From contig NZ_QNUM01000002.1 of the NCBI RefSeq assembly GCF_003574655.1, positions 62,001 through 126,000 of the forward strand: a stretch of 64,000 bases of DNA. The letters run 5' to 3'. Of the stretch, positions 30,650 through 35,879 are shown in pieces. Both the position numbers and the translations under genes were made by a program. Each line of letters begins with the position of its first letter. The first letter of the stretch is position 1. The stretch comes from Cohaesibacter haloalkalitolerans. Its GTDB lineage: Bacteria; Pseudomonadota; Alphaproteobacteria; Rhizobiales; Cohaesibacteraceae. The notes below the pieces were generated by a model, which saw only the letters and a program-made list of their open reading frames with translations, had not been told where the DNA came from and did not search any database.

Positions 30650-32377
30650 TCACTCGTGCATGGACCGCCCTGACGTGCGGGAGAGCAGAATGACCGGCAC
30701 GATTCCCACCAGCACGATTGTCAGCGCCGCGAGCGCGCCCTTCTCGAAGGCCTCCAGCGAGGCCTGCCCATAGACAAGGGTCGCCAGTGTGTTGAAGTTG
30801 AACGGCCGCAGCAAAATGGTTGCGGGCAGCTCTTTCATCACGTCGACAAAAACCAGCAATGCCCCGGACATGAGCGCCGGGCGGATCATTGGCAGATCGA
30901 TTTCCACCAGCGTCTGCCAGGGGGAGCGACCGAGCGTGCGGGCGGCAGCTTCCAGATTGGGAGAGACGCGCTGCAACCCGGTTTCCCCTGCCCCATAGGA
31001 CATGGCCATGAAGCGGACGCAGTAAGCGTACAGCATCGCAGCGCCGGAACCGATCAGAACAAGCCCGGAAGCGATGCCGAACCATTCCTTCATGCTTGAG
31101 GCAATGAGATTGTCGAGCCAGGCCACCGGAATGAGGATCCCCACGGCCAGCACAGTGCCGGGCACCGCATAGCCGATCGAGGATAGCCGCGTGACGGCCT
31201 TCACCAGTGCGCTCTTCTGGCTGCGAGCGAAATAGGCAAGCGCCGTACCGAGAGACGCTGTGAGCAAGGCGGCGACCGACGCCAGCAACAGCGAATTGCC
31301 TGCGGCGGCCAGAAAATCGCTGTTGATGTTGTCGCGCCAGTGGAACAGGACCGAGCGCATCAGAACCGATGCTGGCAGCACAAAGCCGAGCAGAATGGGC
31401 AGCAAGCAGACCAGAAAGGCCGCCCCTGCCCGCCAGCCTCTGAGCCGGAAGCTCGGCAGGGACTGATAGCGCCGGGTTGTCGTGGCAAAACGCTGTTCGC
31501 GTCGGCCGCGTCGTTCCAGCCACAGCAGCAACAGCACCACCACCAGCATGACCGTTGATATCTGCGCAGCCCCCGCAAGGCTGGCCCGATTGAGCCAGGT
31601 ATCATAGACGCTGAAGGTCAGGGTCTTGACCCCGAAGAATTCCACCGCCCCGATATCATTGAGGCATTCCATCATGGCCAGCGTCACCCCGACGACAATC
31701 GCCGGTCGCGCCAGCGGCAGGGCCACGGCAAAGAACAGCCGCACCGGCCCTGCCCCAAGGGTCCGCGCCACATCAAGGGCACAGGCCGACTGCATCAGAA
31801 AGGTCGCCCGCGTTGTCAGGAAGACATAGGGATAGAGCACGAAGCTCATCACCAGAATGCTGCCGGGCAGCGACCGCACCTCGGGAAACCAGTAATCGCG
31901 AGCGCTCTTGAAACCGAACAACCAGCGGATGAGCGTTTGCGCCGGGCCGGAATAGTCCAGCAGATCAACTGCCGTATAGGCGACGATATAGGTGGGGATG
32001 GCCAGCGGCAGCAGCAGAGCCCACAGGAACACCCCCCGACCGGGAAACCGGCACATGGTCACCAGCCAGGCGGAGGAGACCCCGAGCAGACTGGTCAGCC
32101 CCCCAACTCCAAGCATCAGCCAAACCGTCGTCATGATGGAGCGCGGCAGCACTGTTGACAGGAGATGTGGCCAGACATCGCCTGCGTCACCGAATGCAAT
32201 GGCCAACAGCGAAAGCACTGGCGCAATGACCAGCAGCAGGACCAGCAACAACAGCCAATAACCAAGACGCGAGCCGCCACCGGTGCGTGGTGGAACAATC
32301 AGGCTGGCGAGGCGTCCTGCCTCAGCCACCAGCCTTCTGACACCGGATACCTTGGTCGCATTTGCGGTTTCGGACAT
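30650..32377 (-). CDS. Ferric iron ABC transporter, fused double permease (FbpB/SfuB-like)
   Basis: 575-residue inner-membrane protein with about twelve helices and two BPD_transp_1 domains, the fused form usual for iron-specific permeases. Each half has an EAA-like loop; the second is EAARTLGRSPWQTLVEIDLP and the first DVARTLGAGPVRLFFAVALP. AAGGAGG directly before the ATG at 32377 sets the start. The matching binding protein is at 34423-35466 on the same strand, but a plus-strand MFS gene lies between, and no ATPase gene is in the window. Confidence 0.9.
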   Translation of the reverse strand: MSETANATKVSGVRRLVAEAGRLASLIVPPRTGGGSRLGYWLLLLVLLLVIAPVLSLLAIAFGDAGDVWPHLLSTVLPRSIMTTVWLMLGVGGLTSLLGVSSAWLVTMCRFPGRGVFLWALLLPLAIPTYIVAYTAVDLLDYSGPAQTLIRWLFGFKSARDYWFPEVRSLPGSILVMSFVLYPYVFLTTRATFLMQSACALDVARTLGAGPVRLFFAVALPLARPAIVVGVTLAMMECLNDIGAVEFFGVKTLTFSVYDTWLNRASLAGAAQISTVMLVVVLLLLWLERRGRREQRFATTTRRYQSLPSFRLRGWRAGAAFLVCLLPILLGFVLPASVLMRSVLFHWRDNINSDFLAAAGNSLLLASVAALLTASLGTALAYFARSQKSALVKAVTRLSSIGYAVPGTVLAVGILIPVAWLDNLIASSMKEWFGIASGLVLIGSGAAMLYAYCVRFMAMSYGAGETGLQRVSPNLEAAARTLGRSPWQTLVEIDLPMIRPALMSGALLVFVDVMKELPATILLRPFNFNTLATLVYGQASLEAFEKGALAALTIVLVGIVPVILLSRTSGRSMHE

Positions 32378-32701
32378 GCGACCTCCTTGGGCTGGCGCCG
32401 AACTCAGGGGAAAACCGTATTCTTGAGAATTAAACACATATTTTAATCAGGCCACGAAATCAAGCTGTCCCTAGGGCTGAACCAGTTGCATATGAGCCAT
32501 GTGGGCCGCCTTCGTGATCAGATTGTTCTTGCGCTTGGCGTTAAATTAAGTATTTTCCATCAATATAGGCCCAATATCCCAAGTCTCCCCCGATCGCTTC
32601 TCTCGTTTCAGTCTCGTCTCAAGTACGGGCTCGTCTCAAGCGCGGGGCTTTTCCGATTCCTGAAATTTGAACTGCATGGCCCCTTGCGGGTGCCTGCAAG
32701 C
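32378..32701. promoter_or_regulatory. Divergent promoter region of the ferric permease and the MFS gene
   Basis: About 320 bases, with an AT-rich core around 32425-32450 close to the permease start. I looked for Fur- or Irr-type boxes and saw no good match, so iron control cannot be shown from the sequence. Confidence 0.4.
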
Positions 32702-33904
32702 ATGCAAGTGTCCACCGTTATGCCCAATCAATATCTCGTTCTCGTGCTGGTTTTTGTCGGCTCCTTCTCCAATGCCGCGACGGTCCCTTTCATGGGACTG
32801 TTCATCATTGAAGATCTCCAGAAGTCGCCGATGATGATCAGCGTCTACTCCCTTGTGGCCACCGTACTGGCCGTTGCGGCGAACCGCTTCGTGGGGCACA
32901 AGATCGATCAGGGTTGGGACATCCGCAAGCTCCTCCTCGCCTCCATCCTTGCCTATCTTGCTGCGATGAGCTCGCTGCTGTTCGTCACCAGCTACTGGAC
33001 GCTTGTGACGATGTTCGCGGCCTGTCTGGCGATCGCCAACACCGCCATCGGCACCATCCTCAGCTTTGCCCGCTTCTATGCAGACCAGAGCCATCTGGAC
33101 TCGGCCAAATTCAATTCCCGTGTACGCGCCATGATGTCCCTTGCCTGGATGGTCGCTCCGGCGCTCTGCTTTGCGCTGGCCAGCGTCTATGGCCACATGA
33201 TCGTTTTCCAGCTGGCTGTCGCGATCGGCTGCGTCTGGTTGCTGGTGTGGAACATCACACTGAAGCAGCCATTTCGCCGTACCCATCCGGCCCATCAGGA
33301 TTCTGCGGCAGCCAGTGCAGCAGCGGCCAGCAATTTCAACTTCCCGCTCTGGGCCGCCACGGTCGCCTGCTTCTTCATTGCCCTTGGCAACTCGCTGGCG
33401 CTTTCCTCGGCACCGCTGTTCATGATCAAGGAAGCGCATCTGCCCGACTATGCGCCGGGGCTGGCCATCGCCGTCAAATGCTTTTTTGAAGTGGTGGTCA
33501 TTCTGGGCACGCCGGGGCTGCTGAAAAAGATGGGTGCCCGCAACGCGATGATCCTGGCCAGCATGATGGCCGTTGTCTGCTATGGCTATCTTTCCACCAT
33601 CACGTCACTGACGGAAATGTCCATAGCCTCGGCCATCGAAGGCACCTATTTCGGCATCTTCGCGGCGGTCAGCATTTCCTTCATGCAGTCCTTTGCTCGT
33701 GGCTTCATCGGCAACGCCATGGCGCTCTACACCAACTCGATGTTCCTTTCAGGGCTGGTGGGCGGCTCGCTGATGGGCATCATCGCCAGCTACAGCGACT
33801 ATCGCACCGCCGTGCTGTCTGCCTCGCTTGCTGCGGTTGCCGGTATCATCACGCTGGTGGCGACCCGTCGTGCCGACAGGGAAGCAGAAGAACTGCCAGC
33901 CTGA
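32702..33904 (+). CDS. MFS transporter, sugar-efflux (SetA)-like
   Basis: 400 residues with about twelve helices. The start region QYLVLVLVFVGSFSNAATVP, the loop NRFVGHKIDQGWDIRKLLL after helix 2 and the central cytoplasmic loop rich in alanine match the sugar efflux transporter subgroup. The ATG at 32702 is preferred; MPNQY at 32720 is also possible and neither has a strong ribosome site. Codons further upstream in frame encode no membrane or conserved sequence. It interrupts the ferric transport genes on the opposite strand. Confidence 0.82.
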   Translation: MQVSTVMPNQYLVLVLVFVGSFSNAATVPFMGLFIIEDLQKSPMMISVYSLVATVLAVAANRFVGHKIDQGWDIRKLLLASILAYLAAMSSLLFVTSYWTLVTMFAACLAIANTAIGTILSFARFYADQSHLDSAKFNSRVRAMMSLAWMVAPALCFALASVYGHMIVFQLAVAIGCVWLLVWNITLKQPFRRTHPAHQDSAAASAAAASNFNFPLWAATVACFFIALGNSLALSSAPLFMIKEAHLPDYAPGLAIAVKCFFEVVVILGTPGLLKKMGARNAMILASMMAVVCYGYLSTITSLTEMSIASAIEGTYFGIFAAVSISFMQSFARGFIGNAMALYTNSMFLSGLVGGSLMGIIASYSDYRTAVLSASLAAVAGIITLVATRRADREAEELPA

Positions 33905-33928
33905 GACGGTTCTCTCAGGAGACTTCGA

Positions 33929-33993
33929 GCGGGAGAAACCGAGAGACTCCCGCCCCAAAATGAAAGTGCCACGACGGGAAGCCGTCGTGGCAC
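33929..33993. terminator. Two adjacent hairpins after the MFS gene
   Basis: GCGGGAG / CTCCCGC (33929-33935 / 33947-33953) is followed by a perfect twelve-base stem GTGCCACGACGG-GAAG-CCGTCGTGGCAC (33966-33993). On the plus strand no T run follows. On the minus strand the second stem is followed by TTTCATTTT, so it could terminate minus-strand transcripts crossing the hairpin array at 34029-34312. Confidence 0.6.
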
Positions 33994-34028
33994 AATCCAT
34001 TAAAGGCAATCGGACAGGCGGAGAGTAA

Positions 34029-34312
34029 ACAAGGGACCAGCTTGTCCACTATTTTGACCGAATGCCTTCATGTCCAATCCCGCATTCTTGTCTTGTGGGC
34101 AAAAGCCCGGTATGCATAAGACCGTATCGTTCGATGACGCGCATAATAAAGGGACCAGCTTTATTTTCATGCCACCGAATGCGGGACCGTTTGGGGTTGC
34201 GCTCCTTACAGTCGGTCGACGCGAGAGGACCAGTATCGCATCTGTCGTCTGCCAAGCGCTTATTGGGTGAAGGGTCGCCTAACGGCCATGGACTGTAGGA
34301 CCAGTACAGTCC
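34029..34312. ncRNA. Array of four hairpins with identical GGACCAG loops
   Basis: Four inverted repeats enclose the same seven bases GGACCAG. Hairpin 1: ACAAG / CTTGT (34029-34045). Hairpin 2: AATAAAG / CTTTATT (34145-34165). Hairpin 3: GCGAGA / TATCGC with one mismatch (34221-34239). Hairpin 4: GGACTGTA / TACAGTCC (34290-34312). The stems share no sequence but all pair, so structure plus loop is what is kept. Further smaller stems lie between them (GGGC-AAAA-GCCC at 34097-34108; TATGC / GCATA at 34111-34145). The strand of the RNA is not decided. No open frame here has a ribosome site. Confidence 0.55.
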
Positions 34313-34319
34313 GCCTCGC

Positions 34320-34412
34320 TTTGCCACTGGGGGCAAATCGGCTTGCCTTCAACCAATTCGATAAAATTCCTTCTTTCCTTCGGTTCGAACCACCCGGATT
34401 ATTCCAATCCGG
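34320..34412. other. Hairpins between the array and the ferric-binding gene
   Basis: TTTGCC-ACTGGG-GGCAAA at 34320-34337 and CCGGATT-ATTCC-AATCCGG at 34394-34412. The second starts 11 bases past the stop of the ferric-binding protein gene and may be its 3' end, though no T run follows on either strand. Confidence 0.45.
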
Positions 34413-34422
34413 TCAGCGTCCC

Positions 34423-35466
34423 CTAGTTGGCACCAGCATCAAAATCCACGATATCGACCAGCTCGGACGCCTTCTTGCGCGCATCGGCAATCTCGCCGAG
34501 GGCAACGCTATCGGGCTTGAAACTACCCCAGCTCTTGACGATGGCTGACGGCTCGACACCATCCAGCACAGGATATTCGAAGTTGCCTTCCGCATAGATC
34601 TGCTGGGCTTCGGCCGAAGACAGGAATTCCATCAGTTTGATGGCGTTATCCCGGTTCGGCGCATGCTTGACCAGCAGCATGCCGGAAATGTTGACATGGG
34701 TGCCGCGCCCGTCGGTGTTGGGGAACAGAATGCGGACCGAGGCGGCCCATTCCTTCTGTTCGGGCTCCTTGTCATTGGTTTGCATCTGACCCATGTAGTA
34801 GGTGTTGCCGAGAGCAAGATCGCATTCACCCGCATAGACGGCCTTGACCTGGGCGCGATCATTGCTGGTTGGGCGGCGCGCCAGATTGGCCTTCAGCCCT
34901 TCCAGCCATGCACGGGTTTCTTCTTCACCATGATGCACGATCATCGAAGCGATCAGGCCGATGGTGTAATCATGCTGGCCGGAGCGGGTGCAGATGCGGC
35001 CCTTCCATTTCGGATCGGCCAGGTCTTCATAGGTGATGCTATCCTGTTTGACCCGTTCTTTCGAGGCGTAGACCACCCGTGCCCTGGTGGTAAGACCAAA
35101 CCACTGGTTATCGGCATCACGGTATCGGGCGGGAATATTTGCCTTGAGAATATCGGAAGCCACAGGCTGGGCGATGCCCTGTTGCTTTGCAGCTTCCAGA
35201 CGACCGACATCGGTGCTGAGCAGCAGGTCTGCAGGGGAGTTCTCCCCTTCTGCCTCAATGCGGGTCTCCAGACCCTGCTTGGCAAAGATCAGATTGGCTC
35301 GAATGCCCGTCTCTTTCTGGAAGGCTTCCAGAAGTGGCTCGATCAGGAACGGCTGGCGGTAGGAGTAGATATTCACTTCGCTGGCAGCAAGGCTGGCGTT
35401 TGTGGATATCGTAAGCAGGGCGGCAACGGATACCGTCGCTCGGAGGGCCCGGCAGGAATGTCTCAT
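34423..35466 (-). CDS. Ferric iron ABC transporter substrate-binding protein (FutA/FbpA-like)
   Basis: 347-residue periplasmic protein with a signal peptide (MRHSCRALRATVSVAALLTI, cleavage near ASLAASEV). The mature protein opens with EVNIYSYRQPFLIEPLLEAF and has NTYYMGQM, the paired tyrosines used for iron in this family, and a C-terminal EGNFEYPVLDGV. GGAGACAGAC before the ATG at 35466 sets the start; upstream in-frame codons would bury the signal. It belongs with the permease at 30650-32377; the ATPase is missing here. Confidence 0.92.
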   Translation of the reverse strand: MRHSCRALRATVSVAALLTISTNASLAASEVNIYSYRQPFLIEPLLEAFQKETGIRANLIFAKQGLETRIEAEGENSPADLLLSTDVGRLEAAKQQGIAQPVASDILKANIPARYRDADNQWFGLTTRARVVYASKERVKQDSITYEDLADPKWKGRICTRSGQHDYTIGLIASMIVHHGEEETRAWLEGLKANLARRPTSNDRAQVKAVYAGECDLALGNTYYMGQMQTNDKEPEQKEWAASVRILFPNTDGRGTHVNISGMLLVKHAPNRDNAIKLMEFLSSAEAQQIYAEGNFEYPVLDGVEPSAIVKSWGSFKPDSVALGEIADARKKASELVDIVDFDAGAN

Positions 35467-35879
35467 GTCTGTCTCCAATGGTGGGTTCAAGGCCCAAGAT
35501 CGGTTGTGATGCGCTGAACTTGATGCGAAACGTTCGCAAAGTCAACGCAAAAGCCATAACAAAACAGTGAGTTAGGCTGAGATTTGCCGTCGATCTTCTT
35601 AGAATCTTTCAAATTGTCATTGGTAAGTAGCTTGAATTGTTGCATTTCATTCTCAAAAATTGAATACAATATTGTCCGTATTTAATTGTTGAAAATTATC
35701 CTCACCTTTTAGAACCATGTCCTTTTCCCAATGCGATGGAGCGATGTGGAACGCCACGCGGTCCGCACGATTGCTTGCGCATGAAATTGTCGTGAGATCC
35801 TCGGATTTTCCATACCAATGACAGGCCGATTGGTTTAGGTCATGACTGAACACGCCCCAGCCAAGATTTGGAGACTGAC
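35467..35879. other. Divergent region upstream of the ferric-binding gene and HD gene
   Basis: About 410 bases, AT-rich from roughly 35580 to 35700, which suits promoters for both flanking genes. I see no clear iron-regulator box or RNA element. Confidence 0.4.

Follow-up and report, generated by a model that had tools for sequence, protein, structure and literature searches.

We identified a structured RNA encoded on the minus strand directly behind fbpA, the gene for a ferric-iron ABC transporter substrate-binding protein, in a 64,000-nucleotide (nt) stretch of the Cohaesibacter haloalkalitolerans genome (the window; contig NZ_QNUM01000002.1). Four of its hairpins present the same 7-nt loop on different stems, and it is virtually certain that the structured RNA family is real. 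On sequence evidence, it belongs to marine bacteria of the genus Cohaesibacter and appears to be produced as the 3' end of the fbpA mRNA, with its own terminator. We consider it fairly probable that this RNA is a trans-acting, iron-sparing small RNA (sRNA) embedded in the 3' untranslated region (3' UTR), with the four loops as identical seeds. This is the simplest account, because the RNA is tied to an iron importer and its loops are complementary to ribosome-binding sites of iron-protein genes.

Read on the plus strand, GGACCAG stands at 34034, 34152, 34227 and 34298, with complementary arms on either side of each copy. A preliminary description, made from the sequence alone, had pointed to these four loops between pairing arms, and they are indeed present, the third stem (34227) with one mismatch. 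As a bare 7-mer, GGACCAG is ordinary in the window (13 matches vs. 9.5 expected). The placement of the four hairpins is not due to chance, because hairpins sharing one 7-nt loop within 300 nt, four of which are observed, numbered at most two in 100 order-1 Markov versions of the whole window. The range first given for the element, 34029 to 34312, holds for the hairpins and is too short for the RNA, which extends from about 34359 to 33957 and in which the hairpins are nested in larger covarying domains. The RNA is built of four successive units, each a closing helix that encloses a CUGGUCC hairpin, and the terminator comes after the last of them (Table 1); both ends were placed by conservation, and homologues of the locus align over 33960-34420 in BLAST.

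Four hairpin-borne copies of (C/U)UGGUCC were found at corresponding places in all 18 Cohaesibacter genomes, where the loops were located by searching TGGTCC; CUGGUCC occurs 63 times and UUGGUCC nine times, and only the first base varies. A fifth TGGTCC match, at locus L017, is stemless. The spacings of the hairpins differ among relatives (71/75/118, 72/73/119, 68/74/119 and others). For the 5' half, 42 pairs were assessed over 18 sequences in an alignment fitted to R1, a covariance model of this half (165 positions) built from the 11 sequences found by BLAST; 89.8% of 723 cells are paired in this alignment, which leans towards the model, vs. 75.6% after shuffling. Double-sided changes occur in 31 of the 42 pairs (17.6 in shuffles), the covariation score is 0.441 (0.190 shuffled), and none of 500 shuffles reaches the pairing, double-change or covariation value; slid versions of the alignment are 31-42% paired. 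Despite the leaning of the alignment, helices 2, 3 and 5 have double-sided changes in 15 of 16 pairs. The outer helix of domain 1 (AUUGG/CCAAU) is paired and invariant in 18/18 genomes, the next helix shows a double-sided change in each of its six pairs, and the stem of hairpin A (helix 5) in seven of eight. The preliminary description had read the pattern as selection on hairpin structure with a fixed loop, and the 18 homologues agree: each genome has four loop-conserved hairpins, whose arms covary rather than being conserved as sequence.

In four divergent genomes, some stems are mismatched or close one base further out, and the last hairpin spacing is 56-58 vs. 111-120 elsewhere; the 3' half is therefore rearranged in these genomes. 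A coding reading of the region was rejected, as open reading frames (ORFs) of at least 60 amino acids (aa) are broken by the relatives' insertions and deletions, which are not multiples of three. The locus had been described as non-coding and as lying between convergent genes, which is correct (fbpA stop at 34423 on the minus strand, stop of a major facilitator superfamily (MFS) gene at 33904 on the plus strand).

The RNA is read from the minus strand. Compared with shuffles, the fold z-score over 33960-34420 is -5.61 for the minus and -2.57 for the plus strand (-6.07 for 33966-34362, minus), and the consensus fold of an 11-genome alignment reaches -92.9 kcal/mol vs. -58.9 kcal/mol. The sole terminator-like site in 33700-34700 is on the minus strand (33993-33966); its weight comes from conservation, since the count alone equals the shuffle expectation of 1.0. 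A terminator 3' arm and a T-rich tract close the RNA on the minus strand in 18/18 genomes, the hairpin having been judged by eye in the 18-genome alignment and its pairs counted in 11. Contrary to this call, when a fixed 445-nt stretch is folded for each genome singly, the plus strand gives the better fold in five of the 18, four of which belong to the divergent clade with the shorter RNA. On the RNAalifold pairs, G-U exceeds A-C by 89 to 13, a count biased towards the minus strand because the fold was computed on it, and in the first five hairpin positions alone the numbers are about even (21 vs. 19, two of the 19 coming from the stemless L017 match). The strand call thus rests on the terminator and the fold energies, the G-U/A-C counts being biased or even. 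The loops therefore read CUGGUCC instead of GGACCAG. The preliminary description had noted that the plus-strand loops carry GGA and had suggested, among other possibilities, an RNA like those titrating CsrA, for which this GGA speaks. Besides having its GGA on the wrong strand, this idea is contradicted by a search for CsrA, which found it in 0/18 Cohaesibacter genomes and in three of 14 control genomes (E. coli, B. subtilis and T. maritima); it can practically be dismissed.

According to the searches, the RNA is confined to the genus. BLAST with the region found it in 11 of the 18 genus genomes, including the window's own, while R1 found exactly one copy in 18/18; the 11 training sequences match by construction, and the other seven were recovered at E 9e-16 to 0.025. 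The match in the window genome covers 34196-34359 of the window. No R1 match was obtained in two other genera of the family. Across the order (397 genomes), R1 matched 17 genomes of the genus and seven others at E 0.003-0.09; we count these seven as noise, because about 40 chance matches are expected at E 0.1. The order-wide search used stricter filters and missed G005, which the genus search finds; with stricter filters and E 0.001, only the window's own genome was found in 385 genomes of the class. A triple-loop pattern was matched in genome contigs of Cohaesibacter marisflavi, C. celericrescens and one Clostridium, and the last (Clostridium bornimense, L012 1080-1440) was rejected as a chance match that reads as a collagen-like repeat gene.

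The preliminary description had recognised no described family, and Rfam likewise gives no match in the window at gathering score. Relaxed Rfam searches gave five matches in 33900-34500 and seven in L002-L011, all below gathering and nearly all over the terminator hairpin, and no tRNA or tmRNA was found at the locus. No title or abstract beginning describing such an RNA was found in a literature search with partial coverage of Cohaesibacter papers and of subscription journals. The RNA is apparently uncatalogued, and a hint in the raw sequence (one loop on four unrelated stems) has led to an RNA family without a match in Rfam 15.

The RNA starts 21-113 nt downstream of the fbpA stop in 18/18 genomes. 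The fbpA product has ferric-iron-binding proteins as its relatives in the PDB (best 1q35, E 3.2e-110; also 2pt1 and 7li0). The distance from the fbpA stop to the RNA is just 23 nt in G008 and 21 nt in G009, so that the RNA has little room for a promoter of its own outside the coding sequence. Within about 1.3 kb downstream, fbpB follows on the same strand in seven of the 18 genomes, a convergent MFS gene, situated before fbpB or replacing it, is found in ten, and neither in one; the constant partner of the RNA is therefore fbpA and not the downstream gene. In all 18 genomes, the RNA is predicted to lie in the 3' UTR and to share the putative terminator of the mRNA, as is asked of a 3'UTR-derived sRNA. 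A script check of 26 fbpA loci of other genera (L040-L065), seven of which were folded, found no loop array behind fbpA.

The constant position behind fbpA, with a terminator, would also suit an element acting only in cis, i.e., a 3'UTR or intercistronic structure that protects the fbpA mRNA and terminates before the permease, yielding more binding protein than permease; the genomes with fbpB next on the same strand agree with this. However, the RNA is kept in the ten genomes where the convergent MFS gene lies downstream, a plain stabiliser needs no fixed 7-nt loops, and the 26 fbpA loci checked in other genera do without the array. We regard a purely cis-acting role as improbable.

Complementarity to gene starts bears on the trans-acting sRNA that we favour. 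The loop and its next base, a U in hairpins A and B, are together exactly complementary to AGGACCAG, a sequence with a Shine-Dalgarno core; the 8-mer counterpart for loops C and D is GGGACCAG. For the 7-nt loop and the site, a duplex of -11.5 kcal/mol is predicted (-12.9 kcal/mol with the following U), vs. -7.5 kcal/mol for the control motif introduced below. Summed over the 18 genomes, the target pattern AGGACCAGN{4,9}ATG has 336 sites. The sites examined were all 108 of G000, G002, G003, G004 and G005, all 17 of G001 and G010, and 16 from 11 further genomes; an ORF was accepted if it runs for at least 55 aa from that ATG and has an in-frame stop within 49 codons upstream, with a Pfam cut-off of E 1e-5.

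The 108 sites of the five genomes gave 28 ORFs, 17 with a Pfam family, of which ten are iron proteins: cytochrome c (G002, G005), the diiron protein PaaA (G002), a Rieske ferredoxin (G002), an XdhC-like 2Fe-2S subunit (G005), the 4Fe-4S dehydratase Edd (G000, G004), a ferric-reductase-like membrane protein (G003), a 2Fe-2S ferredoxin (G000) and a multihaem-type cytochrome (G003, at a marginal E 8.8e-6). The other seven are citramalate synthase (cimA) and DctM, two each, a metallo-beta-lactamase-fold hydrolase, an aminotransferase and the hydrogenase accessory protein HyaE. The PaaA start of G005 (L145) has the site, failed the filter and was not counted. As the ORFs were cut to 140 aa, most NCBIfam matches stay under the whole-protein cut-offs, that of the MocE ferredoxin lying above. 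Of the four ORFs from the 16 extra loci, three have a Pfam family; two of these are iron proteins, G015 contributing a nitrite/sulfite reductase domain and G007 a cytochrome c. Comparison between genomes shows an unchanged site with varying upstream bases for cimA, Edd and cytochrome c.

As a control, the motif was changed in one base (AGGACGAG) and searched as AGGACGAGN{4,9}ATG in the same five genomes with the same filter, which gave 88 sites, 14 ORFs, seven Pfam families and no iron protein. Complementarity to ribosome-binding sites of iron-protein mRNAs, as expected of an iron-sparing sRNA, is therefore found at 10/17 vs. 0/7 control starts (Fisher p 0.0099 by instance). The excess persists with orthologues collapsed (8/13 vs. 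0/7, p 0.010) and per site (10/108 vs. 0/88, p 0.002); the annotated starts as such differ less (17/108 vs. 7/88, p 0.074). Longer reads of four control ORFs added two further families, PAS and UDG, and the control UDG carries GQDPY, which we take to mark the iron-free family 1. Four genomes without the RNA gave 57 sites of the original motif, eight ORFs, one with a Pfam family, and no iron protein by the same test; this outgroup control agrees with the target test, more weakly. Over all genus sites against control and outgroup together, the numbers are 12/141 vs. 1/145 (p 0.001).

According to the favoured reading, fbpA would be transcribed at low iron, and the 3' part of its mRNA would accumulate, either whole or cut off by processing. 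The four CUGGUCC(U/C) loops would then base-pair with AGGACCAG where ribosomes bind the mRNAs of iron proteins, the proposed targets being cytochrome c, a MocE-type Rieske ferredoxin, a 2Fe-2S ferredoxin, Edd, the XdhC-like 2Fe-2S subunit, PaaA and nitrite/sulfite reductase, and the pairing would block their translation. One transcript would thereby raise iron uptake and lower iron use. The more specific proposal, that the 3' end of an importer mRNA is the alphaproteobacterial counterpart of RyhB, with four seeds silencing up to four iron-protein mRNAs, has in our judgement an even chance of being right.

Several points weigh against this reading. The test covered 141 of the 336 sites, and only AGGACCAG in Shine-Dalgarno position. 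The iron counts depend on cofactor labels taken from Pfam and NCBIfam names and general knowledge, with "iron" assigned post hoc and in small samples. If the control UDG is counted as an iron protein, the contrast weakens to p 0.024, and one outgroup locus (L314, G019) proves to be a cytochrome c at full length, which gives 10/108 vs. 1/57 (p 0.058). Of four ORFs from the 17 sites in G001 and G010, one has a Pfam family (cimA) and none is an iron protein. The motif recurs at cimA and at the DctM permease, neither of which is an iron protein, so that it is not restricted to iron genes; for PaaA and DctM, conservation extends from the site into its flanks. For an sRNA that acts by base pairing, about 395 nt with four bulky domains is a large size. 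The box upstream of fbpA, an inverted repeat (Table 1), is a candidate iron-regulator box only.

The cimA starts of four genomes (L083, L173, L067 and L121) have AGGACCAG 4 nt upstream of the ATG, with varying upstream flanks except between L083 and L121. As cimA is not an iron enzyme, these starts may mark an additional target, or else a conserved ribosome-binding site that has nothing to do with the RNA.

Fixed loops on variable stems, four per genome, are equally expected of a protein site. The loops might bind several copies of one RNA-binding protein, thereby stabilising the fbpA mRNA or sequestering the protein, as the iron-responsive element (IRE) array of the transferrin-receptor mRNA binds IRP1 and CsrB sequesters CsrA; the link to an iron gene in 18/18 genomes also suits such an array, and in that case the motif at iron-protein starts would be there by chance or have some other cause. 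However, the complementary motif at iron-protein starts is not predicted by it, CsrA is absent and would require the other strand, and the loop is unlike that of the IRE. An array of this kind seems unlikely to us, and titration of a protein other than CsrA is less favoured than base pairing with mRNAs. Two known arrays were compared and rejected. An IRE has a CAGUGN loop with a bulged C, which (C/U)UGGUCC does not fit, and ANTAR targets have a hexaloop with A1 and G4, which a 7-nt loop without A does not fit.

The core of the loop, GGUCC, is near-palindromic, so that loops could kiss (G-C, G-C, U.U, C-G, C-G) and join domains or molecules. The predicted loop-loop duplex reaches only -3.1 kcal/mol, and the loops, which were found via a TGGTCC search, vary at the first base only and never become a perfect palindrome; such self-assembly is highly improbable as the function of the array.

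Hairpin arrays with a fixed loop are familiar from the CsrB/RsmZ sponges and from IRE arrays; the Cohaesibacter RNA resembles them in design and differs in its loop sequence, in having the strand opposite to GGA and in belonging to a genus without CsrA. As an sRNA, it would be closest in logic to IsrR of Staphylococcus aureus, which has predicted iron-enzyme mRNA targets, modelled pairings that involve Shine-Dalgarno regions, and C-rich segments that recur unpaired, two lying in hairpin loops (PMC9410917). Iron-enzyme targets and pairing at Shine-Dalgarno regions are predicted for both; IsrR has C-rich tracts and its own gene, whereas the Cohaesibacter RNA has a fixed 7-mer on four domains behind fbpA (PMC9410917). 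RyhB, PrrF, NrrF and FsrA are likewise described as Fur-controlled iron-sparing sRNAs (PMC9410917, PMC11005374). Production at low iron and repression of iron-containing proteins would be shared with them, and the position behind fbpA, the size of the RNA and the fourfold putative seed set it apart. No Rfam match relates the RNA to RyhB, IsrR or FsrA, which of these have Rfam models being unchecked.

Among alphaproteobacteria, RusT of Caulobacter crescentus is also an iron-starvation sRNA and differs in being controlled by NtrYX (PMC11005374). UdsC of Rhodobacter sphaeroides likewise lies in an mRNA 3' UTR, its host mRNA encoding a hypothetical protein (PMC9779115). For Caulobacter, the lack of any known sRNA in the Fur regulon is described as intriguing (PMC11005374), and a RyhB-like arm in another alphaproteobacterium, if true, would partly answer this. 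If the favoured reading is true, building a multi-target sRNA from an importer 3' UTR, with the same seed loop on each of four covarying stems, would be uncommon, and iron import and iron saving would be joined in one transcript. The sharp seed makes the list of targets directly testable.

Table 1. Features of the RNA and its surroundings (window positions; RNA parts listed 5' to 3' on the minus strand).
Feature	Position	Strand	Description
Whole RNA	33957..34359	-	core of about 395 nt and U-rich end, from conserved GAAUUGG (34359) to terminator; in fbpA 3' UTR
Domain 1	34262..34359	-	closing helix AUUGG.GAAGG / CCUUC.CCAAU enclosing hairpin A
Hairpin A	34290..34312	-	GGACUGUA-CUGGUCC-UACAGUCC
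Domain 2	34199..34261	-	closing helix AGCGCU / GGAGCGC enclosing hairpin B; helices 6-8
Hairpin B	34218..34242	-	GAUGCGA-UACUGGUCCUC-UCGCGUC
Domain 3	34075..34189	-	closing helix CGGUCCCGCAUUC / GAAUGCGGGAUUG enclosing hairpin C and a loop-less hairpin (34090-34123)
Hairpin C	34145..34165	-	AAUAAAG-CUGGUCC-CUUUAUU
Domain 4	34005..34066	-	helix GGCAUUCGG / CCGAUUGCC enclosing hairpin D
Hairpin D	34029..34045	-	ACAAG-CUGGUCC-CUUGU
Rho-independent terminator and U-rich tail	33957..33993	-	GUGCCACGACGG-CUUC-CCGUCGUGGCAC
fbpA, ferric-iron ABC transporter substrate-binding protein	34423..35466	-	conserved ATG at 35466
fbpB, permease of same transporter	30650..32437	-	downstream of RNA
Sugar-efflux-like MFS gene	32486-33904	+	convergent; separates fbpA from fbpB in window
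Leader hairpin	35482..35496	-	UGGGCCUUGAACCCA; directly upstream of fbpA Shine-Dalgarno
TTGAC, then inverted repeat TGCGAA-N3-TTCGCA	35521..35545	-	promoter and iron-regulator box candidate

In a sister genus (L051, G018), the gap between fbpA and fbpB folds into a long palindrome-like structure without a loop array, and the permease match starts 416 nt behind the fbpA stop, at residue 49. The fbpA start used here was inferred from the 18-genome leader alignment, the ORF list starting at an upstream TTG (35490). The leader shows striking conservation of its own and contains GGGCCTT(G/T)AACCC in 18/18 genomes (loci L015-L032), and the outer U-A pair of its hairpin becomes G-C in the four divergent genomes; this hairpin is possibly another regulatory element of the same mRNA. 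Further upstream, TTGAC and the inverted repeat, exact in 12 of the 18 genomes and imperfect in the remaining ones, are probably a promoter with a putative iron-regulator box. Over about 200 nt upstream of fbpA (35521-35720, minus strand), the blocks TTTTTCAACAA, ATTCTAA, TAACTTACTG and TTGAC with the inverted repeat are present in most or all genus genomes, and these shared blocks suggest more than one regulator.
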